64,000 nucleotides of DNA from contig NZ_CP091788.1 of NCBI RefSeq assembly GCF_022024055.1, positions 1,736,001-1,800,000 of the forward strand. Direction: 5' to 3'. The notes beneath the pieces were generated by a model. That model did no database searches. It saw only the letters and a list, made by a program, of their open reading frames with translations, and was not told the origin of the DNA. The translations under genes and the position numbers were made by a program. Positions 1 through 15,119 of the stretch are shown in pieces; position 1 is the first letter of the stretch; every line of letters begins with the position of its first letter. The DNA comes from Prevotella sp. E2-28 (GTDB lineage: Bacteria > Bacteroidota > Bacteroidia > Bacteroidales > Bacteroidaceae).

Positions 1-3000
1 GTTATCAGTGTGGCGCCAGTCAGCAGTGCACAGAAGATATCAATGACGGAAGCGTCGAAGATATAGGTTGAGAACTGGATGATACGATCGTCTGCCGTGG
101 GACAATAGACACTAGGAGCACCTATCGTCACCATAGAAACCACGCTACTATGAGGTACGATAACTCCCTTTGGCTGTCCTGTTGTTCCTGATGTGTAAAT
201 CATATAGGCTGGAGTAGATGCCGTAATCTTTGGTTGTAGCGTATCTTCTATTTGTGCCTCTATCAAATCCTCTATGAGATAAATGCGGACTGATGGCACA
301 AGGTCCTCGATATCTTTCTTTAGACTTTGAGTCGTTACAATTCGTTGCATCCCACTATCGGTCATAATATGACGTAAACGTTCCTTGGGATAGGAATCGT
401 TGAGTGGTACATAGAAACAGCCAGCACGAACGATACCAAGAATGGTGGCCAGAGACTGAGAAGAACGTTCACAATAAATGCCTACAGCACCTTGTGGAAG
501 TTCATCGGAAAGAAGTGACGCAGCCACACGGTGTGACGCCTCATCAAGTTGCTGATAGGTATAGCTGCAGTTTTCGTCTTTTAAGGCTAAATGATCTGGA
601 TGATGCGCTACCTGATGAAGGAATACATCAATGATGGTCTCTTTCGGTTTAGAGAGTGGAGAGATTGTATTCAATCTCACCTGTCTGTCATATTCAGACT
701 TATCTACCATAGATGCCGACCTTACAGAATGCTTGTCATTATCCTCCACAAGGTTCTGTAGTAATGCCAGATAGCAACGGCTTAGTAATTCTACATCCTT
801 TTTCTCGGCCATAGATTGACGATAAAGCCATCTGCATTGAAGATTCTTATCATCGTTATCAACAGTCAGCGTTAGTGGAGCCAACTGATAAGGCAGATTA
901 ACGCCTATACTTGTTTCATAGCGCATATTCTCTAATGTAAAATTGAAATACGGTAACTTCACAAGTGCATAAGGATGCGCCGTGGCTTCCCGTATATCTT
1001 TCATAGTATGATTGCAGAGTTGACTGAAGGTCATATCGAGCAGAGAGGAATCATACTTCAAAGGATAGGGATGAACAAAATAGCCCACCAAATCAAAATG
1101 AGTTGATGACGCACGTCCAGATGAAGGATAGCCTATCGTAAACTGTTGCTGTCTGGAAATTCGACTGCAAACCAGCATGAATGCTGATGAGAGGAATGAG
1201 AACAATGTGACATGATGTTGTGAACAGTAGTCATGAATAGCCTTTGACAAAGTTGGATTCATACTTGCAGCAACACATCCTGTCGTATAATCTGTGTTAT
1301 CTGAATCAGTTTTGAAACCAGGTAAATTCAACTCTGGCACATCCTGCAGATATTGATCCCAATACTGTTTGCTATCTGTACCCAAAGCGCTCTGTTCCTT
1401 CTCGTTGGTATTAAAGACATAGTTGGCAAAATTATCTTTTACCGTTATCTCTTTCCCTTCATATAGTTTATAAAGCTGCTTGCTTAGTTCATCAAGCGAC
1501 CAACCATCAGAGATGAGGTGATGTGTATAAACAGCAAACAGCCATCGTCCGTCGGCATCATGATAGAGCTCTACAAAATAAAGAGGTCCATGCATCAAGT
1601 CGAATGGATGTGACAGTCGTTCTGTAACAAGTTCCTTTATGGCATTTTCATCAGCAACGCTAAATTCAGGAATATCAGTTTGCTCTTTGAAGTCATTCAC
1701 CTTCAGATAATGCTTTCCTTCACTATCCGTAAAGAATGTCATACGAAGGGCAGACTGTATCTGTACCAGTTTGTTCCATGCTGCTAAGAGTTTGTCCTTT
1801 TCCAGCGACAGTCCAAAAGGAATCAGTTCTACCAGATTATAGGCCAGTGATGCCTGCTGACTGAGTTGGCAATGTACAAAGACATTCTGAAGATAGTAGG
1901 ATAGGGGAACAGTCTGTAGGTCTGTATCCTCAGATGTTGACGTCGATATATTCTCTCCTTGTACGGCAGAACTAACAAATAATGCTATTTGACGTAGTTT
2001 CAAATGAGAATATACATCATCTATCGTTATCTGAATATTGAATTGCTGTCGCAACTGTTCCGTCATCAAGATGACAGAGATGGAGTCACCACCAACTCCA
2101 ATGAAATCACTATCAGAATCGAATGGTGTGGCATCGCCTAAAATATGATGCCATATAGCGGCAATCTCACGTTCAACATCTCCAGAGATTTCATCTTGCA
2201 GATGCTCAGTAGGCATCATAGCAGCTAACGCATGGAAATCGGTCTTGCCATTTATGTTCTTTGGTATTGTAGACACTTCAATGATACGGGAGGGTATCAT
2301 GTAAGGGGGTAGTTTTCCCTTCAGTTCTTCACGTACTTGCACAGGATTTATCGGACTGACCGCAGCCTTCACGAAAGCACGCAAATACTTCTGCTCTCCT
2401 TGTGTAACAGCCTCTACAGCAGCAGATTCAACAGATTCGCATTTCTCCAAGGCAGTCTTTACTTCGCCTAACTCAATACGGAAGCCACGAATTTTTACCT
2501 GACTGTCCTTTCGTCCGCAGTAGATAATATGTCCGTCTGGCTGCTGATATACCATGTCGCCACTGGCATAAAGAATGGGAGCTGATGGAGCTTGGCTGAC
2601 GAATGGGTTCGCAATAAATTTCTGCTTGTTTAGTTCCTCATTATTCAGATAACCACCCGACAATTGAATGCCACCGATATACAATTCACCTTTGGTGCCC
2701 TGTGGAACTTGATGCAGATGCTCATCCAAAATATAACAGGTTACCCCTTGAAACGGTTTACCTAAATCATTGGCAGAGCTTTCAGGCGTCATGATGCCTG
2801 CCACCGTGACTACCGTTGTCTCTGTAGGACCATAGGCATTAATCACCTTACATGCCTTCTGCCATTTGCGAATCAGAGGCTCAGGACATGATTCACCTGC
2901 AACAGTCAGGTACTTCAAGTGAGGGTATTTCTTAAAAGGAACGACAGACAGATGGGTAGGAGTGATACTGAACGTAGTGACGGGCTGGTGTTCCAGCAGT

Positions 3001-3671
3001 TCAGCTATCAATTGTGGATTATTCCTCTCCTGTTCGCTGAGGAAATACACAGGAGTTCCTGTCATCAACGGACAGAATATTTCCCAGATGGAATAGTCGA
3101 ATACGATACTGGCAAGACTCGTTTCCAGCGTATTCTCTTCAGAAGGAATTAATTGCAGACGTGCTTCTATGAGATTTTGTACGCCAGCCTGTGTAATGGG
3201 TGAACCTTTTGGCCTGCCTGTTGTGCCTGAAGTATAGATAACGTAAGCGTAGGTATTCGGTTCTGCGCATATCGAGGTAGGATGAACATCGTTCAATACA
3301 GACTCATTGATAGTCATCCAATGTGTCAGGGGATAATCTGCTGTTGGTGCAACGCAATCAGTTAGTATCAATTGCAGCTTACAGTCATCAAGAATATAGT
3401 CAATACGTTCTGACGAGAATTTCGGGTCCATCGGAACATAGGCGAAGCCTGCTTTCCAGATGCCGAGCATCATTGGAATAGTATATAAGGTACGCGAAGA
3501 ATAAAGACCTATGAAAGGACATTCCTTGGGGGAAAGTCCGCAATCAATTATCAGTTGTGCTATTTTATCTGATATTAGGTCCAACTCATGGTATGTGGCA
3601 CTCTGATTTCCGAATTTAAGGGCTATGTCAGATGAATGTTGTTCTACTATTCTTTTGAAGAGGTTATTCAT
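1..3671 (-). CDS. Nonribosomal peptide synthetase, A-PCP-C-A (3' end beyond the window)
   Basis: The reading frame opens with ATG at 3671, two bases after the stop of the TonB receptor, and stays open to the window edge (about 1,223 codons), so the C-terminus is missing. Domains in order: adenylation domain 1 (about residues 10-480; YTSGTTGRPKG, FDYSIWEIF with Asp at residue 192, NAYGPTETT); a carrier domain with phosphopantetheine serine about residue 530 in GVGGDSIS; a condensation domain (about 565-960) with HHLISDG about residues 717-723; and adenylation domain 2 (from about residue 1010; YTSGTTGQPKG, FDASVIDIF near residue 1206). No condensation domain precedes the first adenylation domain, as expected of an initiation module. 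By homology to GrsA I read first-pocket residues D,Y,W,S,T,A,A,V,V, which I cannot assign to a substrate. It likely makes a short peptide; number of modules and release domain lie outside the window. Confidence 0.93.
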   Translation of the reverse strand, partial: MNNLFKRIVEQHSSDIALKFGNQSATYHELDLISDKIAQLIIDCGLSPKECPFIGLYSSRTLYTIPMMLGIWKAGFAYVPMDPKFSSERIDYILDDCKLQLILTDCVAPTADYPLTHWMTINESVLNDVHPTSICAEPNTYAYVIYTSGTTGRPKGSPITQAGVQNLIEARLQLIPSEENTLETSLASIVFDYSIWEIFCPLMTGTPVYFLSEQERNNPQLIAELLEHQPVTTFSITPTHLSVVPFKKYPHLKYLTVAGESCPEPLIRKWQKACKVINAYGPTETTVVTVAGIMTPESSANDLGKPFQGVTCYILDEHLHQVPQGTKGELYIGGIQLSGGYLNNEELNKQKFIANPFVSQAPSAPILYASGDMVYQQPDGHIIYCGRKDSQVKIRGFRIELGEVKTALEKCESVESAAVEAVTQGEQKYLRAFVKAAVSPINPVQVREELKGKLPPYMIPSRIIEVSTIPKNINGKTDFHALAAMMPTEHLQDEISGDVEREIAAIWHHILGDATPFDSDSDFIGVGGDSISVILMTEQLRQQFNIQITIDDVYSHLKLRQIALFVSSAVQGENISTSTSEDTDLQTVPLSYYLQNVFVHCQLSQQASLAYNLVELIPFGLSLEKDKLLAAWNKLVQIQSALRMTFFTDSEGKHYLKVNDFKEQTDIPEFSVADENAIKELVTERLSHPFDLMHGPLYFVELYHDADGRWLFAVYTHHLISDGWSLDELSKQLYKLYEGKEITVKDNFANYVFNTNEKEQSALGTDSKQYWDQYLQDVPELNLPGFKTDSDNTDYTTGCVAASMNPTLSKAIHDYCSQHHVTLFSFLSSAFMLVCSRISRQQQFTIGYPSSGRASSTHFDLVGYFVHPYPLKYDSSLLDMTFSQLCNHTMKDIREATAHPYALVKLPYFNFTLENMRYETSIGVNLPYQLAPLTLTVDNDDKNLQCRWLYRQSMAEKKDVELLSRCYLALLQNLVEDNDKHSVRSASMVDKSEYDRQVRLNTISPLSKPKETIIDVFLHQVAHHPDHLALKDENCSYTYQQLDEASHRVAASLLSDELPQGAVGIYCERSSQSLATILGIVRAGCFYVPLNDSYPKERLRHIMTDSGMQRIVTTQSLKKDIEDLVPSVRIYLIEDLIEAQIEDTLQPKITASTPAYMIYTSGTTGQPKGVIVPHSSVVSMVTIGAPSVYCPTADDRIIQFSTYIFDASVIDIFCALLTGATLI

Positions 3672-3673
3672 GT

Positions 3674-6097
3674 CTAAAGAGTATATTTGATAGAAGCCAG
3701 CAATGTACGTCCTGGGTTATACCACGGCATAATAATTAGCGTAGCACCAGAAATATATGTTTTCTTATCGAAAATGTTCTCACAATCCAATTGCAAACTC
3801 ATGTGCTTACCAAACTGATAACGTGCTCCCAAGTCAATAACGGTATTGTCTGAATACTTCGTGTCTTCAAGTGTAGGATCTGGTGACTGGATATAGAACT
3901 TGCTACCGAATTTCACATTTGATGTCAGCCAAAGATGTTGATTATTTTTTCCTAATACATCATACATCAGTTGTACATTACTAATAAAATCAGGTACCGA
4001 ATAAATATGATGCCCCTTGACTGGATAGTCCTTTGCACTCAAAATGCGGGTGTGACTGGCTGTAAAGTTTGCCTTCAGTCGCTTACCGTTATAATGTAAG
4101 GCACATTCAGCACCAATCGTTTCCAGTTTACCAGAATTTCTATACTTGTCATCCTCGAGACCAGCAGAAGGAATGGAATAAATAATATCGGAGAATCTAT
4201 TGTAGAATAGATTGACATCGTATGTAAGGTTTTTAAGTAAGATGTCCCCCATTACGTTAAACTGAACAGCATTCAGGTACTCAGGTTTCAAGTCAATACT
4301 GCCTTTATAGGTATTATCCATATTCAAACGATAGAAATAAGGTGCATCTACAAATGAACGTGAATAAGACAGTTTCATGCTCAGCGCTCTGGATGACGTA
4401 TAGATAAATGCCACACGTGGAGAGAAAGCATTAATTCGAACACCGTTAGCGCGATATTTACTATCGAATCGTGTACCCGCATTCAAAATAAGTTTTGGAG
4501 TGAAATAATGTTTGTCTTGTACAAAGAACGAGATATTATTCTCACGTCCCGTCTTAATCGTATTATTCTTTTCAGAAAAGAACAGCATGATGTCGTCGAA
4601 ATTTACGCCCACCATTCCATATGTATCATACAGGGAGAAATACTCGTATTGCATACCGGCCAGAAGGTTACCTTTCATCTTTCCCAAGGTGTAATTATAG
4701 TCCCCTCTAAGTGATGCACCGATAGTCATCTCTTTCCAATCATAAATCTGGTATGCGCCAATATAAGTTATTTTAATAGGATTGCCTTGCTCATCCTTCG
4801 CAGGAGTACCATCATCATTGAACTCTTCATATTCCATGAAGTCTGAAGCTGCACTATAATCATTAATGTCATACCAGTCACCATATACGGAGGCATTCAG
4901 CGAGAAATTTCCCAGTTTTTTGCTGTAACTCAAGTCTGCATGGTTCTCATCAACACAATAGCCAGGCTTTTGTCCGTCGAACCACCGATAGGTATCATAA
5001 TCATAAAGGTGAGACAGCACAGAATACTGTTGCGTTTTTTTGCCACTCTTACTCGAGAACATCAGACTGAAATCATTCAATTTTATGTTGACACCTACAT
5101 CGTAGGAAGGCTTTTCTGCGTATTTGTTGATATGGGCATAACCTCCGTATGATGAAGGCACCCCCGCAATTCTATAAATGTCTAACGACTGATCCAATTC
5201 TGGAGACAGATAACGGTCTTCACCATCAGAACTATACAGGGAAGCCCAGGCAAAGACATCACAATTCATGAAATGCGTTCCTGCTTGGAAGTCTGCTTTG
5301 TGCGTATTCAGAGAACCATAGCCATACTGAGCTGTCAGTCCATTAACGCTGGTACCATCCTTTGTAATGATATTAACCACAGCAGTAAGAGCCACGTTGC
5401 CGTAAAGAGAAGATGCAGGCCCACGAAGCACCTCAATATGATCAATCTTCTGCGTATTGATAGCATAGTCAGTACGTCCCAGGTTGGTGGAACGGGCATT
5501 CAAACGATGACCATTCTCCATGATAAGGATATTCTCCTGACTGGCCGTATAGGCACCATGCATGGCAATATTGTCAAGATTAGCCGAAGCTACCTCTGAT
5601 ACACCCGGAATATATGCAGCCAGGATTTGATTGAGGTTCTTGTTATAGCCCAGCATCTCAATCATCTCGGATGTAATAATCGTTACGGGCACAGGAGCCT
5701 CACTAATTTTCTCAGCCTGACTGGAAGCCGTTGTCACAGTCGTTGAACGTCCCGTCTTCAGTCTGCTTATCATATCCTCGAAACGCACTGGGTCTTGCAC
5801 CGAAGTGTAGTAGGGGTTTTCTTGAATCAACAGCGACGTATAGCTTTCTGCCAAAGCAATACTGTCTTGAGCCAGATAGCATAGCGAAAGCAAACGATAG
5901 GCATTCTGCTTCAGGTTGCCATTGAAATACTTCAGGTTGCTCTTCAGTAGTTGGGTGGCTTGTTCCAACCGACCTATCTGATATTCCTTTTCTGCCTGAT
6001 CATAGATCTGTCGAGCTGACCCGACATCCTGTGCCGAACCGGAAAGGGGCATTTGAAAACAAAGTATTGCTATGATGATAAGAACTTTCTGTCTCAT
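3674..6097 (-). CDS. TonB-dependent receptor with TPR-like N-terminal domain
   Basis: An 807-residue outer-membrane receptor. Residues 1-23 form a signal peptide ending SGSAQ. Residues 24-100 look like TPR helices (YDQAEKEYQIGRLEQATQLL, NAYRLLSLCYLA) rather than the usual carboxypeptidase-like domain. Residues 131-250 are the plug (PVPVTIITSEMIEMLG, VLRGPASSLYGN, AVVNIITKDG). The rest is a 22-strand-type beta barrel ending in an aromatic-rich strand (GRTLLASIKYTL). It overlaps the stop of the upstream histidine kinase by 4 bases and lies two bases before the NRPS start, so all three are probably translated from one message. By family knowledge it imports a TonB-dependent ligand; import of the NRPS product, perhaps as a metallophore, is inference from position only. 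Confidence 0.9.
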   Translation of the reverse strand: MRQKVLIIIAILCFQMPLSGSAQDVGSARQIYDQAEKEYQIGRLEQATQLLKSNLKYFNGNLKQNAYRLLSLCYLAQDSIALAESYTSLLIQENPYYTSVQDPVRFEDMISRLKTGRSTTVTTASSQAEKISEAPVPVTIITSEMIEMLGYNKNLNQILAAYIPGVSEVASANLDNIAMHGAYTASQENILIMENGHRLNARSTNLGRTDYAINTQKIDHIEVLRGPASSLYGNVALTAVVNIITKDGTSVNGLTAQYGYGSLNTHKADFQAGTHFMNCDVFAWASLYSSDGEDRYLSPELDQSLDIYRIAGVPSSYGGYAHINKYAEKPSYDVGVNIKLNDFSLMFSSKSGKKTQQYSVLSHLYDYDTYRWFDGQKPGYCVDENHADLSYSKKLGNFSLNASVYGDWYDINDYSAASDFMEYEEFNDDGTPAKDEQGNPIKITYIGAYQIYDWKEMTIGASLRGDYNYTLGKMKGNLLAGMQYEYFSLYDTYGMVGVNFDDIMLFFSEKNNTIKTGRENNISFFVQDKHYFTPKLILNAGTRFDSKYRANGVRINAFSPRVAFIYTSSRALSMKLSYSRSFVDAPYFYRLNMDNTYKGSIDLKPEYLNAVQFNVMGDILLKNLTYDVNLFYNRFSDIIYSIPSAGLEDDKYRNSGKLETIGAECALHYNGKRLKANFTASHTRILSAKDYPVKGHHIYSVPDFISNVQLMYDVLGKNNQHLWLTSNVKFGSKFYIQSPDPTLEDTKYSDNTVIDLGARYQFGKHMSLQLDCENIFDKKTYISGATLIIMPWYNPGRTLLASIKYTL

Positions 6098-6915
6098 GCT
6101 TTCTTAATAGGTAATACAAAGGTAAAGCAGGTGCCTTGTCCTTCATTGGAATCAAAGGACAACTGGCCCCCATGCTTGTTTTCTATGATATCACGTGTGA
6201 TGCCCATGCCAAGACCAGTACCTTGACCAACGGGCTTCGTGGTGAAGAAATTCTCGTAAAGATGCTCCTTCACCTCGTCGCTCATACCTGTTCCGTTATC
6301 TTTAATCTGAATAATCAGTTCATCGGCAGCCGAAACCACCACCTCTATCGTAGGCTGATAGTCGGCACCTTCCTGCTGACTGCGCTGCTTCACAGCGTAG
6401 CAGGCATTGCTCATCACATTAAGCACCGCGCGACTCAAATCCTGCGGAATCACCATCATTTGGGGAATACCTTCCTGATAATTCTCCTTGATGCTGATGT
6501 TGAAACTCTTGTCATTGGCACGCATAGCATGATAAGCCAACCATACGTACTCTTTCACCAGATGGCAGACGTCCGTAGGCAGGAACTCGTTCTCTTTGCC
6601 TCTTGACATCAACAGGATACCACGGATGATGCTGATAGCCCGCTCACCATGTTCCACGATCTTCGCCATATTCTCTTTCAAGTCAGCCACGATGTCCTCT
6701 ACCTCCTCACGATCGTTTTCAGGCAACTTATCCTCGTTGTCCTCCACGATTTCCGTCAGGTCGTTCAATAACTTGTCAGACATCTTGCTGAAGTTGATGA
6801 CGAAGTTCAGCGGGTTCTGTATCTCATGGGCAATACCTGCGCTGAGCAGTCCCAGCGATGCCAGTTTCTCCTGTTCTTTCAACTTCTGTTGCAGGTCTTC
6901 CATTTGCTTCTCCAT
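6094..6915 (-). CDS. Soluble histidine kinase (no sensor domain)
   Basis: A 273-residue cytoplasmic kinase consisting of a short coiled coil (residues 1-20), a HisKA-like dimerisation domain with an intact H-box (AGIAHEIQNPLNF, His30) and a HATPase domain with N-box (NVMSNACYAV), G1 (DNGTGM), F-box (FFTTKP) and G2 (GQGTGLGMG). There is no membrane segment or sensory domain, so the input must come from elsewhere. The gene lies seven bases after the propeller sensor, whose own histidine is missing, and overlaps the TonB receptor by 4 bases. I infer that it provides phosphoryl transfer for the cassette, with the receiver-PP2C protein as the likely target. A normal orphan kinase is the alternative. 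Confidence 0.88.
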   Translation of the reverse strand: MEKQMEDLQQKLKEQEKLASLGLLSAGIAHEIQNPLNFVINFSKMSDKLLNDLTEIVEDNEDKLPENDREEVEDIVADLKENMAKIVEHGERAISIIRGILLMSRGKENEFLPTDVCHLVKEYVWLAYHAMRANDKSFNISIKENYQEGIPQMMVIPQDLSRAVLNVMSNACYAVKQRSQQEGADYQPTIEVVVSAADELIIQIKDNGTGMSDEVKEHLYENFFTTKPVGQGTGLGMGITRDIIENKHGGQLSFDSNEGQGTCFTFVLPIKKA

Positions 6916-6922
6916 AGTCGTA

Positions 6923-9745
6923 TCAGTTTTGACTTATTGGTAATGTGATTGTAAATTCCGTATAGACATCCTTCTCTGACTTCACGCTGATATCGCCACT
7001 GTGGTTCTGGATAATCTCACGGCTCAGGTACAAGCCTACGCCAGCAGCTTCGCCAGTAGGTTTCGTCGTGAAGAAGGGGTCGAATACCTTATTAATAATG
7101 GTATCTTCAATGCCAATACCGTTATCGCGAATGGCGATGGTAAGATGGTCGGCAGTGGTATCGACGCTTAGTGTAATCTCTGGGTCGTACTTCTCGCGCT
7201 GAGCTTTCTTCACGACCGCATAGACAGCATTACCCAGCATGCTCATCAGCGTCATGCTCAACTGCTCTGGATTACCATTGATAGAAATGCTCTCCTGCGG
7301 AATGTTGAAGTTGACCTTGATGCTGTACTCTTTTATCTTCTCAGCAAAGTAGCTATTAGTCATTTCCTTATCCTGATTCAGCACAGGCACTAAGTCCATA
7401 GGTTTGATACCACCGCTACGGTCTTTCAGCATCTCTTCCATAGCCTTTAGGATGCGCGTATTATTCTGTCCGTGTTCACTCACTTTCTGCAGGTTACCTA
7501 TCAGCATATCGAGCACATCCATCGTATCCTCGTAGTTGTCCTCGCTCATGTTATCTTTCTCGTCCTCAATGTTGGCTTTAATATCCTTTGCCAGTCCTTC
7601 TGAGAGCTTTGCGAAGTTATTGATATAGTTCAGCGGGTTCAAGATACGGTCAATGAGTCCTTGTGTCAACTTACCTGCAGTGGCCATCTTCTCTTGACGA
7701 ATCAACTCGTTCTGCGCCTGAGCCAGGTCATTGAGTGCCGTTTGCAGACTCTTAGACTTCTCCTCAATCTCGTCTTTCTGTTTCACCACCTCGGCAGTAC
7801 GTTCCTGCACGATGTTTTCCAGTCGCTGCTTTTCCTTCTCCAACTGGCGGACATGGCGCTTGGCAAATGCATAGAGCAAGAAGACGAAGAGTAAGAAATA
7901 TGAAATGAGCATATACCAGCGCTGGTAGAACGGGAATTGTATGGTAAACTTCAGTTGTTCCGTCTGAGTGATATTACCATAAGCATCCATTGCCTGCACC
8001 TCGAAGGTATGGCTGCCATAATTCAAGCTGGTGAATTTCACCTCCTGTTCGTCATCCCATGCCGACCAAGGTTGGTTGTCCTGTCTGTAGCGATAGAGGG
8101 TTTTCTTGATAAGGATGGTATTATCGAGGCCGAAGGTGAACTCCAGGTTACGCTCATCGCTCGACAATTTGAAATTCTTTGGCATCTCGCCATATCCACC
8201 CCACAGGATGCTGTCGCCATTCAGCTTCACGGTACGGATAAACAGTTTCGGCTGACTCTCCAGAATGGGGTCGGTGAAATTGCTTCTGTAGGTAATCAGA
8301 CCGAAGTCGCCACCCATGATGAGCCTGTCGTCCATAAGCAGCATATCGCGTACATTATACTCGCTGATAGCATTCAGTTGCTTTTCATACGTCTTCTGTC
8401 TGTTGCCATCCTTAATACAGTAAAGTCCGCGTCCGTCGCTATTCGTCAGCCAAGTTGTTCCCGTCTTGTCCTTATAAGCCATCTGAGGGTAGGGTATAGG
8501 CTCTGTCTGATTCGCGCTGATGGTAAGCAGTCCCTTGTCCGTAGGCACTATCATGCCTGGCACCGTCTTATCCCCTTCCAGTATAACCTGATGGAAGTCT
8601 TTCTCCGCAGCCTTCTTACACCAGATGATGCCGTATAGGTTCTGGAGCCACATTGCCCCCTTCTCATCCATATAGATTTGCGTCACACGCTCCAAGTCGG
8701 CAATCTTCTTCCTGCTGCCGTTATCGCCGTTCAGGTACACACCATCGGGCTCACCCGTATAGAATCCCCCCTGCGCCTCCTTCACCGACATGGTGTTCTG
8801 GTTGTTCAGACGCTTAGCGTTGTTCTTATTGTTCACCAAGTAGAGACCGTTGCTTGTTGCCACGAGCAAGCCTTTCTTCGTGGTAATCATCTGCCAGCAT
8901 TGATGCGACATATTGGCTACGGGGTGGAAGAACTTGTCTTCCATGTAGAACAAGCCATTGGTAGTTCCCGCGTAGAGCGTTCCCTCATGATAGAGGATTG
9001 ACAAGGCCTCACCACGCAGACCCTCCTGTGCAGTAGAGTGGGTGTAGGTTGTAGGCACGGCAATGCAGAACAAACCATTGTTGGTGGCACCCCATAGGAT
9101 ACCCTTGCCGTTATAGGCCAACTTATTGATGGCATTCGAGCAAAGTCCGTTGTCCTCTGTGATGAAATATGCCGTCATGCCATTACTGAGAAACTCCACG
9201 CCATTCGCCTCTGTGGCCTTTGCCTTCAGCCCGAATCCGAGGTCAACCAGTTCGTTGCTTGGAGCCGTGTTCAGTATGTTCTGTTGGGCTTCCTTGATTT
9301 CCCCTTTGTCCAGGGTATATACATTTCCATCCTCCAGTTGGAAGACCATCTGCTTTCCGTTTTCCCATATTTGGGAAATGACGCCCTGAAAACTACCTTT
9401 CTCTACGGCATTATTCAGGATCAAGTCGCCCCTCTCATTACCCTTGATGAAGCCCAGATAATTATAGCCACCTGCCCAGATGGTACCTTTCGCATCACGG
9501 TACAGGGTCGTTATTCGGGTGATGTTCGGCGTGTGGATGATGCGCCATTCCGCCTGATCGTAATACAGCAGTCCCTCGAAGTTTGCCACATACACAAATC
9601 CCTTGTCATCCGTGGTGATGTCGAAGTTACGGTTATGCGCCTGATACTCATTGGCGCTGAAGTTACGCAGGAAGGGAAGTCCCTGTGCAAAGCACGTGAT
9701 GAGTGATAAATGAAGGGCGATAAGTAGTAGCAGTCGTTTATTCAT
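6923..9745 (-). CDS. Propeller sensor kinase lacking the phospho-acceptor histidine
   Basis: A 940-residue membrane sensor: signal peptide (1-21), periplasmic two-component-regulator propeller repeats (about 30-500), a Y_Y_Y domain (about 530-605), one transmembrane helix (about 612-632), a coiled coil, a HisKA-like helical pair and a HATPase domain. Where the adjacent soluble kinase reads AGIAHEIQNPLNF, this protein reads QGLIDRILNPLNY, so the histidine is Asp699 (codon GAC at 7651-7649). The ATPase keeps the N-box asparagine, G1 (DNGIGI) and F-box (FFTTKP), but its G2 box is weakened (GEAAGVGL). It lacks the receiver and AraC domains of the hybrid two-component systems that use the same sensor. 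It overlaps the upstream gene by 4 bases. Probably a signal-binding pseudokinase acting through a partner. Confidence 0.88.
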   Translation of the reverse strand: MNKRLLLLIALHLSLITCFAQGLPFLRNFSANEYQAHNRNFDITTDDKGFVYVANFEGLLYYDQAEWRIIHTPNITRITTLYRDAKGTIWAGGYNYLGFIKGNERGDLILNNAVEKGSFQGVISQIWENGKQMVFQLEDGNVYTLDKGEIKEAQQNILNTAPSNELVDLGFGLKAKATEANGVEFLSNGMTAYFITEDNGLCSNAINKLAYNGKGILWGATNNGLFCIAVPTTYTHSTAQEGLRGEALSILYHEGTLYAGTTNGLFYMEDKFFHPVANMSHQCWQMITTKKGLLVATSNGLYLVNNKNNAKRLNNQNTMSVKEAQGGFYTGEPDGVYLNGDNGSRKKIADLERVTQIYMDEKGAMWLQNLYGIIWCKKAAEKDFHQVILEGDKTVPGMIVPTDKGLLTISANQTEPIPYPQMAYKDKTGTTWLTNSDGRGLYCIKDGNRQKTYEKQLNAISEYNVRDMLLMDDRLIMGGDFGLITYRSNFTDPILESQPKLFIRTVKLNGDSILWGGYGEMPKNFKLSSDERNLEFTFGLDNTILIKKTLYRYRQDNQPWSAWDDEQEVKFTSLNYGSHTFEVQAMDAYGNITQTEQLKFTIQFPFYQRWYMLISYFLLFVFLLYAFAKRHVRQLEKEKQRLENIVQERTAEVVKQKDEIEEKSKSLQTALNDLAQAQNELIRQEKMATAGKLTQGLIDRILNPLNYINNFAKLSEGLAKDIKANIEDEKDNMSEDNYEDTMDVLDMLIGNLQKVSEHGQNNTRILKAMEEMLKDRSGGIKPMDLVPVLNQDKEMTNSYFAEKIKEYSIKVNFNIPQESISINGNPEQLSMTLMSMLGNAVYAVVKKAQREKYDPEITLSVDTTADHLTIAIRDNGIGIEDTIINKVFDPFFTTKPTGEAAGVGLYLSREIIQNHSGDISVKSEKDVYTEFTITLPISQN

Positions 9746-11352
9746 TTCTCACCTCCTTTCACGTTATTGATAAACATCTGGTAAGAAGCACTCTTGCCGA
9801 TGTAGTTGTTCCATTGCTCTTCCGTGAGCAGATGCCCTTTCAGTCGGTCCACCATCAAATCAACTGATACCAGCGTCTCCGTGAGGTTACCGTTGTTATC
9901 GCCCGACCATAGGTGCGTCTTCTTATTGTCAATGTTGAAGTACCTGATCCATCCGTCCGACTCATCCGACTGGAACAGTTGTATAGGTTCTACCTTCTCA
10001 TTCTCGTAAAGCCAGAGGTGCATCTTGCCGTCATAGCTCGACGAATAAAGCTGGTTACCGTTCACCTTCAAACGGGTGACGCGTGAGCGATGCCCCAGTA
10101 GTTCCTTCACCTTGCCATTCTTCTCCTCCACGTAAATCTTTCCGTCGCTGGTGCCGTAGGTGTTGATGCCCTTGTTGTCAGAACGGGCAAAGGCTGTCAC
10201 GATACCCTTCACGGCATTGGGCTTGCGCCTGCTTTCCATCTTGTTCACACTCACAATCTCGTGCGTGTTGCCCTGCTCGTCAAAGATATACGGATGCTTG
10301 TTGATACGTCCAGAGGCCGTTATCTTGGCATTGAAATGTAAGGCGCCCTGCTGCTCGTAGGTCTTGGTATTCATAAACACCACACTACGTTCACCTACCA
10401 CCACCAGTATGTCGTCACCAAACATATCCAATGCCTTGGGGTGACTGATGTCCGTCAGCATGATTGACTCAGCCTTGCCGTTTGCAGGGATGACAACCAA
10501 CTGCCCCGTGTAACTTGCGGCGAAGATGGTGCCAGCAGGGTCAACATACACACTACGGAAATCATAATTGCTGTTAGCGAAGAGACTCTTCGTCTTCAAC
10601 TTCTCATCCTGATTCACATGACGGAAAATCTCGCCATAGCTGCTCACGGTGACCAGTTCGTTATTGGTATTGGGGATAAAAGCGATGCCCGTAATACCAC
10701 CCTTGTGCAAGCGGTTCCAACTGTGCTTGCCCTCGCTGACCTCCATGAGAGCCTGAATCTCCGAGAAATGATACATGTCGTTCCTGTTGCCGTAGGTCTT
10801 CGTAAACCAATACGACGTGTAGGCCAGTCGCTTGGCCAGTTCCTTGTTACCACCCGACTGATACTGATTAGAGGCCATGGAGGCGAGCGAGCGTCCTAGC
10901 GCGATATAGCTTAGTGTATCTGCCACGCGCTTGTTCAGCTCCGCCGTCTTCCTCTGGTCGTTGGCTATCTCGGCCTGTCGCTTAGCCTCCTTGCTCTGTG
11001 CCTCGGCATTATCGCGCTCTTTTCTAGCCACCTCTTCCGAAGCCTTTGCCTGATTCTGGGCTACGATGGCTCGTTGCTTCTCCTCCTCGGCAATCTCGGC
11101 CTGCTTCTTTGCCTCTTCAGTACGCTCATCGCTGATGCGCTTCTGTTCGTAGGCAATTTCCTCCATCTGCTTGTTGATGCTCTGGTCAATGACGGCCCTG
11201 TGCTCCTTCTTGCTCAGTTCTGCCAACTGCTGTTCCAGTTCCGCCGTCCTTTCCTTCTCAAAATAATAGAAGCCAAAGCCAAGGGCACATCCTGTACCTA
11301 AGACAGCACAGGCCAGCCCCCAAAGCATATTCTTTCTAATCAGCTCTTTCAA
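9742..11352 (-). CDS. Membrane-anchored coiled-coil protein with C-terminal beta propeller
   Basis: A 536-residue protein with an N-terminal membrane helix (about residues 10-30, GLACAVLGTGCALGFGFYY), a long charged coiled coil (about 35-150, rich in EEAKKQAEIAEEEKQRA-like heptads) and a WD40-like propeller (about 205-480; ITGIAFIPNTNNELVTVSS, GHRSRVTRLKVNGNQLYSSS, GKMHLWLYE). No catalytic motif is visible. The last four bases overlap the start of the propeller sensor and the first codon lies six bases after the receiver-PP2C gene, so it belongs to the same signalling unit. The architecture resembles the scaffold end of WD-repeat signalling proteins. A role in docking kinase and phosphatase at the membrane is my inference. 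With Lys/Arg before the helix, the propeller could equally be periplasmic. Confidence 0.75.
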   Translation of the reverse strand: MKELIRKNMLWGLACAVLGTGCALGFGFYYFEKERTAELEQQLAELSKKEHRAVIDQSINKQMEEIAYEQKRISDERTEEAKKQAEIAEEEKQRAIVAQNQAKASEEVARKERDNAEAQSKEAKRQAEIANDQRKTAELNKRVADTLSYIALGRSLASMASNQYQSGGNKELAKRLAYTSYWFTKTYGNRNDMYHFSEIQALMEVSEGKHSWNRLHKGGITGIAFIPNTNNELVTVSSYGEIFRHVNQDEKLKTKSLFANSNYDFRSVYVDPAGTIFAASYTGQLVVIPANGKAESIMLTDISHPKALDMFGDDILVVVGERSVVFMNTKTYEQQGALHFNAKITASGRINKHPYIFDEQGNTHEIVSVNKMESRRKPNAVKGIVTAFARSDNKGINTYGTSDGKIYVEEKNGKVKELLGHRSRVTRLKVNGNQLYSSSYDGKMHLWLYENEKVEPIQLFQSDESDGWIRYFNIDNKKTHLWSGDNNGNLTETLVSVDLMVDRLKGHLLTEEQWNNYIGKSASYQMFINNVKGGEK

Positions 11353-11358
11353 TGCTTC

Positions 11359-12522
11359 TTACTTTCGTTTAAATGATAATAATGTGATATCATCACTTTG
11401 CGGTGCACCATCGGCGAATGCCTTCACACTTGCCAGTATGCCGTTAACCGTCTCCTGACAATTCAGCCCCTGTAGCATGTTCAGTGTCTGTTTCAGTCTT
11501 GGCTCGCCATATTCCTCAAGGTCATTGTTCACAGCCTCGTTTACACCGTCTGTGTACATCACCAGCATATCGCCCTTTTCCAGTGATAGCGAGCCAGCCT
11601 CGAAGTCTAGTTCCTCTAAGGCGCCAATCATGCAGTTGGTACTCATGGGCAGAGCCTCTGCCTGTCCGTTGACATGAATGATATAGGGGGAGTTATGTCC
11701 TGCGTTACAATAGTTTATCTCGCCAGTCTTAGTGTTGTAGATGGCGTAGAACACCGTAACGAACATACAGTTCACTGACTCCTTACACAGCAGCTCGTTG
11801 GCACGAGTCATCACGTCGTCAGGCTTATTTCCCTGCATACCTATAGCACGAATCAGCGTACGGCTCACGGCCATAAAGATAGCAGCGGGTACACCTTTAC
11901 CGCTTACGTCGGCCATCACGAAACCAATCCTGTCTTCATCAATGCGGAAAAAGTCATAGAAGTCACCACCCACATCCTTTGCGGGTGTCATAGATGCTGA
12001 TACGTCCAGAATATCCTCTATCTCAGGGAATGGCGGGAATACGCGTGGCAGAATAGCCTGCTGAATCTCTCCAGCTACAGCCAAGTCCGTTTTCAGCGAC
12101 TCCAGCTGTGTGTGCTCCTTTTGTGATTGTTTGATATAGTCTATCTGTTCAATAGCCTTCTCGATAGTGACGCTCAGATCGTCCAGGTCAATAGGCTTTG
12201 TGGCAAAGTCGAACGCACCGTTGTTCATAGCCTGACGGATGTTGCCCATATCGCCATAGGCGCTCACCATGATACATTTCATAGCAGGGTTCTGCATCTC
12301 GTTAATCTTCGTGAGCAGGGTCAGACCGTCCATCTCGGGCATATTGATATCACTCAGAATGATGTCGAAGTCCTTGTGCTGAAGCATCATCGTCAGTGCC
12401 TCCACACCGTTGTGGGCGAAATGAAACTCGTACTCTCCTTTACGGATCTTCCTTCTGAAGTATTGTGTCAAGAGCAACTCGAGGTCCATCTCGTCATCGA
12501 CACTAAGAATTTTTGTTGGCAT
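11359..12522 (-). CDS. Response regulator with SpoIIE/RsbU-type PP2C phosphatase output
   Basis: A 387-residue protein. Residues 1-125 form a receiver domain with acidic pocket D9/D10 and phospho-acceptor Asp58 ([12 protein letters not shown]). A linker helix (130-170) joins a PP2C-type phosphatase (about 175-387) with the metal-binding signatures [31 protein letters not shown] and SDDITLL. The family dephosphorylates serine or threonine on partner-switching proteins such as anti-sigma antagonists. No STAS or anti-sigma gene is in the window, so the substrate is unknown. It is the first gene of the compact cassette, 57 bases after the pyrophosphatase gene with no recognisable promoter between. 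The cassette's histidine kinase is the obvious phosphodonor candidate. Confidence 0.9.
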
Positions 12523-12579
12523 AATATTTTTGTCGTTTTATGTTTGTTATCGTTTTTGTATTTTATTGTTGTCTGTTGT

Positions 12580-14766
12580 TTACGAGAATAATACGGTTAG
12601 ACCTGCCATCACGATGCTTACCATCGACATCAGTTTGATAAGGATGTTCAGCGACGGACCTGAGGTGTCCTTGAAGGGATCACCGACGGTGTCGCCTACG
12701 ATAGTAGCCTTGTGAGCAAACGAGCCCTTTCCGCCGAAGTTACCTTCCTCTACCATCTTCTTGGCATTATCCCAAGCGCCGCCGGCATTAGCCATAAACA
12801 CGGCGAGGGTGAAACCACTCGACAGTCCGCCAACCAGCAGTCCCAGCACACCGGCTATTCCCAGCACACAACCTACCACGATAGGAATGGCGATAGCCAG
12901 GAGCGACGGGATAATCATTTCGTGCTGAGCAGCGCGAGTAGAAATCTCTACGCAAGAACCATAGTCGGGTGTGCCTGTTCCCTCAAGGATGCCCTTGATC
13001 TCGCGGAACTGTCGGCGCACTTCCTCCACCATCTTCTGGGCAGCACGTCCCACGGCCTCCATGGTGAGTCCGCAGAACAGGAAGGCTGCCATGGCGCCGA
13101 TGAAGGCTCCCACCAGCACGCGGGGGTTCATCAGGTTCACCTGGAAGTAGTTCATGAAGTCGGGTATGGTGGCGTTCATCGCGTCAATCTGCTGACCTGC
13201 CAAGTTCACGATGAAGTCGCCAGAGCGGTGCATCGCAATCTTCACCTCCTCGATATAGGAAGCCAGCAAGGCCAATGCCGTGAGGGCAGCCGAACCAATG
13301 GCAAAGCCCTTGCCCGTAGCAGCCGTGGTGTTACCTAATGCGTCGAGGGCATCCGTGCGATGACGCACCTCTTCGCCCAGTTCACTCATCTCGGCATTAC
13401 CACCCGCGTTGTCGGCAATAGGTCCGTAGGCGTCGGTAGCCAGCGTGATACCCAGCGTAGAGAGCATTCCCACGGCAGCGATACCGATGCCATAGAGACC
13501 CTGCGACAGGGCTTCTGCGTTCATATCCATCACGAAACCGTTAGCGCAGAGGTAGCTCAGCATGATAGCTACACCGATGGTTACCACGGGGATGCAGGTG
13601 GACATCATACCCGTACCGATACCCTTGATGATGACCGTGGCTGAGCCTGTAAGACCTGCCTCGGAGATTTTCTGCGTGGGTTTATAGGAGTGTGAGGTAT
13701 AGTATTCCGTGGCCTGTCCGATGATGACACCAGCCAGCAGACCCGTGATGACTGAGAACGAGAGTCCCAGCCAGTTGTCTATCTGGAGCATATAGAGGAT
13801 GCCGAAGGTGGCTGCGGCAATCAGCAGGGCGCTCACATTCGTGCCAAGCGACAGCGAGCGGAGCAGGTCTTTCATCGTAGCGCCCTCCTTGGTGCGAACC
13901 AGATAGATACCCAGAATGCTGAGGAATACGCCCACGGCAGCTATCAGCATCGGGGCTATCACGGCCTTGAGCTGCATCTCACCTGAAGCGGCGAAAGCAA
14001 CGGCACCCAGTGCTGCGGTAGAAAGTATCGAACCGCAATAGCTCTCATACAGGTCGGCACCCATGCCAGCCACGTCGCCTACGTTATCACCCACGTTATC
14101 GGCAATGGTAGCGGGGTTGCGGGGGTCATCCTCGGGGATGTCGGCCTCCACCTTACCCACGATATCGGCGCCTACGTCGGCAGCCTTCGTATAGATACCG
14201 CCACCCACACGGGCAAACAGCGCCTGCGTTGATGCACCCATTCCGAAGGTCAGCATCGTGGTGGTGATAGAAATCAGTCCGTCGGCATCAAACTGGTTCA
14301 GAATGAGGAACCACACGGCGATATCCAGCAAGCCGAGGCCTACCACCGTCAAACCCATCACGGCTCCCGAGCGGAAGGCAATCTTCAATCCGCCGTCCAG
14401 ACTCTTGCGGGCTGCGTTGGCTGTACGCGCAGAGGCATAGGTGGCTGTCTTCATGCCGAAGAAGCCTGCCAAGCCACTGAAGAAACCGCCTGTCAGGAAG
14501 GCAAACGGCACCCAGGGATTCTGTACACCAAAACCATAAGCCATGATAGAGAAAATCACGGCCAGCACAATAAATACTATCAGTACTACTTTATACTGCT
14601 GTTTCAGGTAAGCCATAGCGCCACGGCGCACGTGTCCTGCTATTTCGCGCATTCTCGGTGTGCCTTCATCGGCCTTCATCATACTACGGAAGAAAATGAA
14701 AGCCATTCCCAGTGCCACGATTGATGCGATGGGCACCAGCCAGAATTCAAAAGGTATAGTATTCAT
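12580..14766 (-). CDS. hppA: Membrane-bound cation-translocating pyrophosphatase
   Basis: A 728-residue polytopic protein of the membrane pyrophosphatase family, which couples PPi hydrolysis to export of H+ and/or Na+. The catalytic loops are clear: [20 protein letters not shown] in the middle and DNAKKMVE plus [20 protein letters not shown] near the C-terminus. The diagnostic segment reads [10 protein letters not shown], with Ala where potassium-independent enzymes have Lys. By family knowledge this marks the K+-dependent branch, which contains the Na+ and Na+/H+ pumps found in Bacteroides. Length is normal. A promoter lies just upstream (14807-14836). The signalling genes follow 57 bases downstream and may be partly co-transcribed. 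Confidence 0.95.
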
Positions 14767-14806
14767 ATCAGTTAATATTTATTGGTGATTGGTTATAATT
14801 TGTTTG

Positions 14807-14836
14807 CAAAAATACAAAATAAATCGGAAATACAAA
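14807..14836 (-). promoter_or_regulatory. Putative promoter of hppA
   Basis: On the minus strand, TATTTTTG (14814-14807) fits the Bacteroidota -7 element TAnnTTTG. TTTG (14836-14833) lies 18 bases upstream, slightly shorter than the usual 19-21. Confidence 0.45.
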
Positions 14837-15119
14837 ACGTTTTTGGCGAAAAACATGAAAAATACTGTTAACTGCCTAGGTTGTTCCGTGTAATTGGCCA
14901 AGTTGTGCCTCGCAAAATGGGAAGTTGTGTCTTTTCATTTTGACCATGACGACTGTTACCTTATTTAGTACCAGAATTTCGAAAAAGTCAATGATTTTTG
15001 AAGGATGTTGTTCGAATCGTTAAAGGGGAATGTGTGAAAAATAGCGGATTTTTTGCTCTTAATTAGTGGAAATATCACACTTATTGTAAATTTTGAACAC
15101 TATTTTCGCGCGAAATTTG

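Follow-up and report, generated by a model that had tools for sequence, protein, structure and literature searches.

Why should a gene for a nonribosomal peptide synthetase (NRPS) stand in a single run with four signalling genes and a TonB-dependent receptor? This question is raised by a locus of Prevotella sp. E2-28 at the start of a 64,000-nucleotide (nt) stretch of contig NZ_CP091788.1 (positions 1,736,001 to 1,800,000; G000:C1:1736001-1800000 in our numbering of genomes and contigs), which we call the window. The genome comprises 3.76 Mb in two contigs. The six genes are:

11359-12522, minus strand: receiver-PP2C protein (Pfam Response_reg and SpoIIE)
9742-11352, minus strand: WD40 membrane protein (Pfam WD40)
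6923-9745, minus strand: propeller kinase (Pfam Reg_prop, Y_Y_Y and HATPase_c)
6094-6915, minus strand: soluble histidine kinase (Pfam HisKA and HATPase_c)
3674-6097, minus strand: TonB-dependent receptor, 807 amino acids (aa) (Pfam Plug and TonB_dep_Rec)
3-3671, minus strand: NRPS, of which the N-terminal 1223 aa lie in the window (AMP-binding, Condensation, PP-binding)

An initial annotation, made from the letters of the window, had described six co-directional genes with gaps of -4 to +7 nt and had named their products. All six open reading frames are where it placed them, the junctions measure +6, -4, +7, -4 and +2 nt, and our domain calls agree for every gene. We found that the first five genes are a conserved Bacteroidales cassette, and that the NRPS and the receptor are exchanged jointly under sensor genes that are kept. 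We propose, with a probability of roughly 55%, that the operon encodes a circuit for sensing at the cell surface whose specificity unit can be exchanged, with the full mechanism set out below.

The conserved cassette and its optional NRPS

Relatives of the WD40 protein occur in 13 of 121 genomes of the family, E2-28 included, and the neighbouring signalling genes are shared at nine of the 12 other loci. Orthologues of receiver-PP2C were found in 29 of 399 family genomes (E 1e-70) and in 140 of 398 genomes of the genus (E 1e-120). When 60 same-genus loci were picked by receiver-PP2C alone, from the top of the 140-genome list by score with some passed over, the order receiver-PP2C, WD40 protein, propeller kinase, soluble kinase was present in 57 and the receptor followed these four genes in 54; two members of this set (L170 and L189) have a receiver-PP2C gene without the cassette. 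All 19 family loci have both the four-gene order and the receptor after it. A scan with the receiver-PP2C alignment added 80 named loci that we kept, among them loci of Prevotella, Phocaeicola intestinalis and Parabacteroides. Gene order was viewed for 42 of these 80, and 30 of the 42 were used in comparisons. Over all 118 compared loci, a set in which the 30 named loci were picked after their gene orders were known and some genomes stand twice, the four-gene order is present in 112 and the receptor follows it in 103. Such an order is no product of chance. An assembly chimera is an unlikely source of the layout, because the same gene order recurs in many genomes.

Conservation is uneven within the cassette. 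Outside the closest few relatives, identity to the E2-28 protein is about 66-77% for receiver-PP2C and 67-78% for the soluble kinase, 40-53% for the propeller kinase, 34-45% for the WD40 protein and mostly 32-50% for the receptor.

The NRPS is not a fixed part of this arrangement. Among the 118 loci it lies directly beside the receptor or kinase in 34 and is absent from 74, with 10 cut by contig ends. After dropping loci that lacked one of the five genes, or that were identical in receiver-PP2C and receptor, 93 remained, of which 30 have an NRPS in that place and 63 do not. Control of an NRPS was thus not the only function for which the signalling genes evolved, and the NRPS as a constant operon member is ruled out. 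The initial annotation had called for a search for the same six-gene order in other Bacteroidota; the first five genes recur, but not the NRPS as a constant sixth. It had also stated that its reading would be refuted by homologous loci that consistently keep NRPS and signalling genes apart. They do not, as cassettes with NRPSs of several types were found in at least five genera.

In the loci without an NRPS, the receptor often stands directly before the same AAA_14 and oxidoreductase genes that adjoin the E2-28 NRPS. Seven receptors (L161, L164, L199, L198, L207, L208 and L209) lie in the sister clade of the NRPS-linked clade to which the E2-28 receptor belongs and have no NRPS; in L161, L164 and L199 this receptor stands in tandem with a second one. 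It is possible that such receptors belong to listeners or cheaters. Gene order is rearranged in L027. The cassettes of Phocaeicola intestinalis and a relative (L048, L113 and L114) are interrupted by genes of the GlcNAc 2-epimerase and isoamylase types, two STAS genes, one RsbW gene and a DJ-1/PfpI gene.

The receptor itself carries a domain that marks the cassette:

5744-6028, minus strand: N-terminal helical (TPR-like) extension, residues about 24-118 (profile and model)
5384-5707, minus strand: plug domain, residues 131-238 (Pfam)

The predicted structure of the receptor (pLDDT 83.7) contains the barrel, and residues 25-115 are modelled as five helices. All 22 PDB sequence matches to the receptor start at residue 113 or later. 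A profile of the extension matches 105 of 105 different cassette receptors (weakest E 7e-19), and every cassette receptor has at least 107 residues ahead of the plug. We also searched whole genomes with this profile, using 31 of the 56 genomes compared below for STAS, HATPase_c_2 and SpoIIE. The cassette receptor or receptors were the sole match in 13 of 13 genomes with the cassette, and there was no match in any of the 18 without it. We infer from this distribution that the extension couples the receptor to the cassette sensors.

Joint exchange of receptor and NRPS

If the NRPS and the receptor work as a pair, their histories should agree with each other. On FastTree trees of the 93 loci, which are related to one another, the presence of an NRPS requires four changes on the receptor tree, eight on that of the soluble kinase, 12 each on those of the propeller kinase and the WD40 protein, and 14 on that of receiver-PP2C; labels shuffled without regard to shared ancestry require 25-26 on average. 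The receptor tree needs three changes once L123 is represented by the receptor before its NRPS (the first trees and correlations took its second receptor; the barrel comparison and the corrected values take the one before the NRPS). NRPS distance and receptor distance are correlated over the 30 loci with an NRPS (Spearman 0.49; 0.60 with L123 corrected), and remain so after the four signalling genes are removed (partial r 0.42; 0.56 with L123 corrected; permutation p 0.001 for both). For each of the other genes, the partial correlation with NRPS distance is between -0.16 and 0.16.

Individual pairs of loci show the exchange directly (pairwise NRPS identities were computed over the last 830 aa). 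In L113 and L114 the four signalling proteins are 98.7-100% identical (receiver-PP2C 100%, soluble kinase 99.7%), and the receptors share 49% and the NRPSs 34%. In L197 and L202 the signalling proteins are 93-98% identical (receiver-PP2C 98%, soluble kinase 93%), with 41% for the receptor and 33% for the NRPS. The E2-28 locus and L111 form a third such pair (signalling proteins 73-91%, receptor 49%, NRPS 29%). The converse is also seen: L151 and L153 share a receptor (100%) and NRPS (99.6%) under signalling proteins that are 72-94% identical (receiver-PP2C 84%, propeller kinase 72%), and E2-28 and L185 have receptors of 80% and NRPSs of 88% identity with WD40 proteins of only 39%. These results show that NRPS and receptor are exchanged jointly while the sensor genes are kept.

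The DNA of L113 and L114 locates one exchange. Across the kinase gene and up to nt 300 of the receptor gene (about codon 100), the two are 97-100% identical; identity is 92-93% up to about nt 420 (about codon 140), and then at most 77%, mostly about 65%, and falling; high identity returns right after the NRPS stop codon. Thus, the extension stayed with the sensor genes, and the plug, barrel and NRPS were replaced. BLAST match ends had placed the swap boundary at the end of the plug, which fine windows overturned: it lies at about codon 140 in this pair and at the receptor start codon in L197/L202. The boundary therefore varies.

Where receiver-PP2C is at least 98% identical, receptor barrels are 31-32% identical in two pairs with NRPSs and 94-97% in five pairs without, three of which stem from one trio of loci. 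At receiver-PP2C identities of at least 84%, median barrel identity is 42% in 29 NRPS pairs and 31% in 12 mixed pairs.

The joint exchange suggests that the system detects or recovers a molecule made by the cell itself. The initial annotation had imagined a loop of sensing, making and retrieving a peptide. This idea predicts that receptor and NRPS change together, which they do, and the loop is thereby partly supported; an outside signal may control synthesis, and the peptide may return through the receptor.

Sensor proteins, the split kinase pair and the probable output

The WD40 protein is built of an N-terminal hydrophobic helix, a long helix (residues 70-165) and a propeller (residues 209-494). 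The two kinases differ at the phospho-acceptor place. This is His in 106 of 106 different soluble kinase sequences (GIAHEIQNP in E2-28) and Asp in 109 of 109 readable different propeller kinase sequences, one more being too short (GLIDRILNP in E2-28). An earlier row count, in which some genomes stand twice (L021 and L129 are both G104, and L048 and L113 come from one Phocaeicola record), gave His in 58 of 58 soluble kinase rows and Asp in 60 of 62 propeller rows, the remaining two not covering the place. The conserved Asp suggests that the propeller kinase would work with the soluble histidine kinase. The initial annotation had called the propeller protein a pseudokinase. This is half right: the acceptor His is missing, but the HATPase_c domain is intact and strong (74.5 bits). 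The propeller protein may phosphorylate its partner, or may only regulate it.

In four loci of Parabacteroides/Tannerellaceae (L052, L055, L063 and L090), a 371-373 aa Asp-type kinase adjoins the soluble kinase and receiver-PP2C, with no WD40 or receptor match at these loci; Asp was read at the acceptor place of the short kinases of L052, L055 and L063. The two preceding genes in L052 are STAS and RsbW by Pfam, and the other three loci have two genes of like size there.

DivL lacks the phospho-acceptor His, and the propeller kinase resembles pseudo-histidine kinases of the DivL type in being a His-less kinase-like protein that would work with another kinase. It differs from them in having Asp in the motif GL[IV]DRILNP, and in that its gene, with few exceptions among the cassettes, adjoins that of a soluble kinase with the His. 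Bacteroidales hybrid two-component sensors carry Reg_prop and Y_Y_Y domains, as the propeller kinase does. In contrast to those sensors, it has no receiver and no helix-turn-helix or AraC domain by Pfam; the receiver is on a separate phosphatase, and the acceptor His is replaced by Asp. The regulation of CckA by DivL is described in PMC9430884.

What does the pair act on? Receiver-PP2C joins a SpoIIE phosphatase with its conserved Asp residues to a complete receiver, as in known partner switches. Receiver residues D9, D10, D58, S87 and K109 and phosphatase residues D187, D205, D325, D377 and D378, which we take to be the functional and metal-binding positions, are present and invariant in nine aligned sequences, that of E2-28 included. 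The genome of E2-28 has one strong SpoIIE match, receiver-PP2C itself (182 bits), and one other of 25.4 bits. It has one short stand-alone STAS gene; two further STAS matches fall in longer open frames, of 402 and 560 aa. A single HATPase_c_2 match passes the cut-off, and its gene encodes 137 aa. Both partners of a switch, a STAS protein and an RsbW-type kinase, are thus present. They lie at L130:7397-12495 (C1 about 1169396-1174494), together with a histidine kinase, a CitMHS/TrkA_C transporter and a RelA_SpoT-domain gene, in a cluster whose gene ends overlap or nearly touch.

For genome comparisons of STAS, HATPase_c_2 and SpoIIE, we counted a genome as having the cassette if it had a receiver-PP2C orthologue. 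A short HATPase_c_2 gene, defined as an open frame of up to 240 aa scoring over 58 bits (limits set after the list had been seen), is present in 29 of 29 genomes with receiver-PP2C and in one of 27 without (Fisher p about 4e-15, kinship ignored). Within the genus the counts are 39 of 40 and six of 40 (Fisher p about 5e-15, again ignoring kinship); this set took 40 of the 60 fetched genomes and 40 without receiver-PP2C, some of which may lack the cassette only because their assembly is incomplete, and G720 was counted with a frame of 233 aa. Direct linkage was also found. In L117 a STAS gene stands directly before receiver-PP2C and an RsbW gene directly after the receptor, in L188 and L205 an RsbW gene follows a receptor, and in L048, L113 and L114 the two STAS genes and the RsbW gene lie between receiver-PP2C and the WD40 gene. 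The output is probably a STAS/RsbW partner switch. Such a switch would resemble RsbU/RsbV/RsbW and receiver-SpoIIE systems in the joining of SpoIIE and receiver and in the STAS and HATPase_c_2 partners, which are encoded in the genome and clustered in some relatives; it would differ in being driven, apparently, by a split kinase pair and in its link to a TonB receptor and an NRPS.

A second association of NRPSs with partner-switch proteins is found in L143, L144 and L146 (G122, G302 and G294), where larger NRPSs are clustered with proteins of 734-744 aa that match SpoIIE and HATPase_c_2. In L143 this protein has a Cache/PDC sensor as well, and the locus contains an Alginate_exp-type protein and a MATE transporter. 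In L145:2800-4617 (G281), a MATE transporter fused to HATPase_c_2 (605 aa) directly precedes a very large NRPS (open frame of 5774 aa). This fusion hints at an exporter, instead of a sigma factor, as a possible target of an RsbW-type domain.

A model of the circuit and its rivals

We propose that the NRPS makes a small peptide that would serve as the ligand of the adjacent TonB receptor, as their co-variation and joint exchange suggest. The ligand-bound receptor would signal through its cassette-only helical domain to two probably periplasmic partners, the WD40 and propeller proteins. As the propeller kinase cannot carry phosphate on a His, it would pair with the soluble kinase, by trans-phosphorylation or by allosteric control. 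The soluble kinase would then phosphorylate receiver-PP2C, and the phosphatase would remove phosphate from the stand-alone STAS protein, which would bind the RsbW-type kinase; copy number, co-occurrence and direct linkage in other genomes point to this last step. Where the NRPS is missing, the ligand of this same circuit would come from others, from the host or from the diet. Two elements were not in the initial annotation: that the NRPS/receptor pair is exchanged, and that the output is probably a STAS/RsbW switch encoded elsewhere in the genome.

Several results weigh against this model. The NRPS is missing from 63 of the 93 cassettes, no exporter is found among the six genes, and the STAS/RsbW pair of E2-28 lies about 570 kb from the cassette. 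One genome of the within-genus set (G638) has receiver-PP2C and no short HATPase_c_2 gene, and six genomes show the reverse. The trees were made with FastTree only and on related loci, and the shuffles and Fisher tests ignore shared ancestry. In L197/L202 the drop in identity at the start codon means that the extension was exchanged too. Finally, NRPS-less pairs with receiver-PP2C identities of at least 84% also have diverged barrels (median 61% over 39 pairs, down to 24%), and all these receptors have a conserved plug, so that plug/barrel contrasts between distant pairs say little.

If the model is correct, a conserved kinase circuit of Bacteroidales would read out an exchangeable NRPS/receptor pair. 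The system also points to another kind of signalling domain on a TonB receptor, helical and confined to the cassette, and to an obligate pair of His-less and His-bearing kinases with a partner switch in Prevotella-type bacteria. Whether a receptor sees its neighbour's product can be tested directly with the natural swap pairs.

A bolder reading is self-recognition by NRPS-based 'pherotypes', which we offer tentatively and consider somewhat improbable. Each lineage would make its own peptide and sense it with a matching receptor, through a constant split-kinase and partner-switch circuit that spans the envelope. Specificity would be changed by swapping NRPS and receptor (one exchange covered the plug, barrel and NRPS alone), and cassettes that have an NRPS-type receptor and no NRPS would listen to others.

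The NRPS gene ends 1.8 kb outside the window:

L003:158-5671 (G000:C1:1734158-1739671), minus strand: complete NRPS, 1837 aa

Its domain order is adenylation (A), carrier (T), condensation (C), A, T, followed by a C-terminal thioesterase-like part. It is the sole Condensation-domain match of the genome at E 0.001, and the 4'-phosphopantetheinyl transferase family also has a single match. The nucleophile position of the thioesterase-like end is a Cys (GLCLGG, starting at residue 1690), and this end has no Pfam match; some close relatives are listed with a Thioesterase domain. Ser is more frequent than Cys at this position in thioesterases (PMC11298585). Leftward extension had been suggested as a check, and it yielded the end of the NRPS with the thioesterase-like part; the operon contains no exporter. 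An NRPS running far beyond the window with more modules is ruled out, as the single gene is followed on the same strand by an AAA_14/DUF4143 ATPase gene and a gene matching pyruvate:ferredoxin oxidoreductase. Across loci, cassette NRPSs include A-T-C-A-T, C-A-T and single A-T proteins, many being single-module A-T proteins of about 812-880 aa. NRPSs had been supposed to be rare in Prevotella-type genomes; they are less rare than that, with an adenylation domain over the curated cut-off in 83 of 399 family genomes.

The first rival to consider is a metallophore pathway resembling pyoverdine uptake: the NRPS product would scavenge metal, the receptor would import the loaded complex, and the kinases would respond either to that complex or to the supply of metal. 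In FpvA, the pyoverdine receptor, an STN-type domain relays the signal to a pair of anti-sigma and extracytoplasmic function (ECF) sigma factors. The Pfam scan of our receptor gave no STN domain, its N-terminal domain is modelled as helices, and its neighbours are a split kinase pair and receiver-PP2C. Among the six genes and their immediate neighbour on each side, the part of the genome that was searched, Pfam detected no FecR-type anti-sigma or ECF sigma gene. The receptor is thus not an FpvA-type transducer by the defining domain. Its best NCBIfam models are the TonB haem (101.9 bits) and siderophore (95.2 bits) receptors, both below their cut-offs, and the best matches in a fold search with the receptor model are FhuE, FhuA, FoxA and Fiu, with FpvA further down. 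Joint diversification of synthetase and receptor is also a known mark of pyoverdine: two papers describe synthetases and TonB receptors that are often near each other and co-vary (PMC11734721) and whole NRPS sets replaced by horizontal transfer (PMC11366639). The cassette receptor is likewise close to its synthetase and co-varies with it. However, cobalamin and haem receptors score in the fold search too, the single-module proteins are small for the assembly of a chelator, and there are no tailoring genes in the operon. We regard a metallophore as unlikely.

Less plausible still is a passenger, in which the gap between the kinase and AAA_14 would be a recombination hot spot that NRPS and receptor enter together with no functional tie to the signalling genes. 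The right boundary (AAA_14 and pyruvate:ferredoxin oxidoreductase) is indeed common to many loci with and without an NRPS, and the place of the NRPS varies, before the receptor in L111 and in seven of the 60 same-genus loci and after it elsewhere. Yet the receptor with its cassette-only extension usually follows the kinase whether or not an NRPS is present, cassettes with NRPSs recur in at least five genera, and the exchange in L113/L114 left the extension on the sensor side. A toxin or antibiotic that harms neighbours, with a receptor that recycles it or protects the producer and a cassette that senses competitors, would fit the exchange of the pair between relatives and the Cys motif, matched in nine of 18 NRPS rows including that of E2-28 (in the other nine the search pattern missed it, it was cut off by a contig end, or it is absent), given that ObiF and SulM use Cys thioesterases to close strained lactone or lactam rings (PMC11298585), but it is very improbable in view of the operon's lack of immunity or export genes, the E2-28 thioesterase-like end without a Pfam match and the seven sister-clade receptors without an NRPS.

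Coupled diversification of synthetase and receptor is already known from pyoverdine, and the surface-sensing circuit that we favour differs in its wiring. No description of this cassette was found in an open-access library that does not cover most subscription papers. In a survey of the rumen, 5,346 NRPS clusters were reported, with expression of Prevotella NRPSs; its main text does not mention TonB, two-component systems or histidine kinases (PMC8241843).

The layout is operon-like, and the six genes may share one transcript. The initial annotation had named strong promoters between the genes as a finding that would refute its reading; no convincing internal promoter was found in a sigma-70-type scan of window positions 1-15000 (31 sites against 24.6 in shuffles) or in a search for TAnnTTTG, which we take to be the Bacteroidales -7 motif. 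The latter occurs inside the operon on the minus strand at 1427, 6117, 10281 and 10419, and at 6117 no TTTG was seen at the expected spacing. A proton pyrophosphatase gene (window 12580-14766) lies 57 nt upstream of receiver-PP2C. No terminator-like site was found in this gap, so the operon may start further upstream, and the pyrophosphatase gene may share its transcript.

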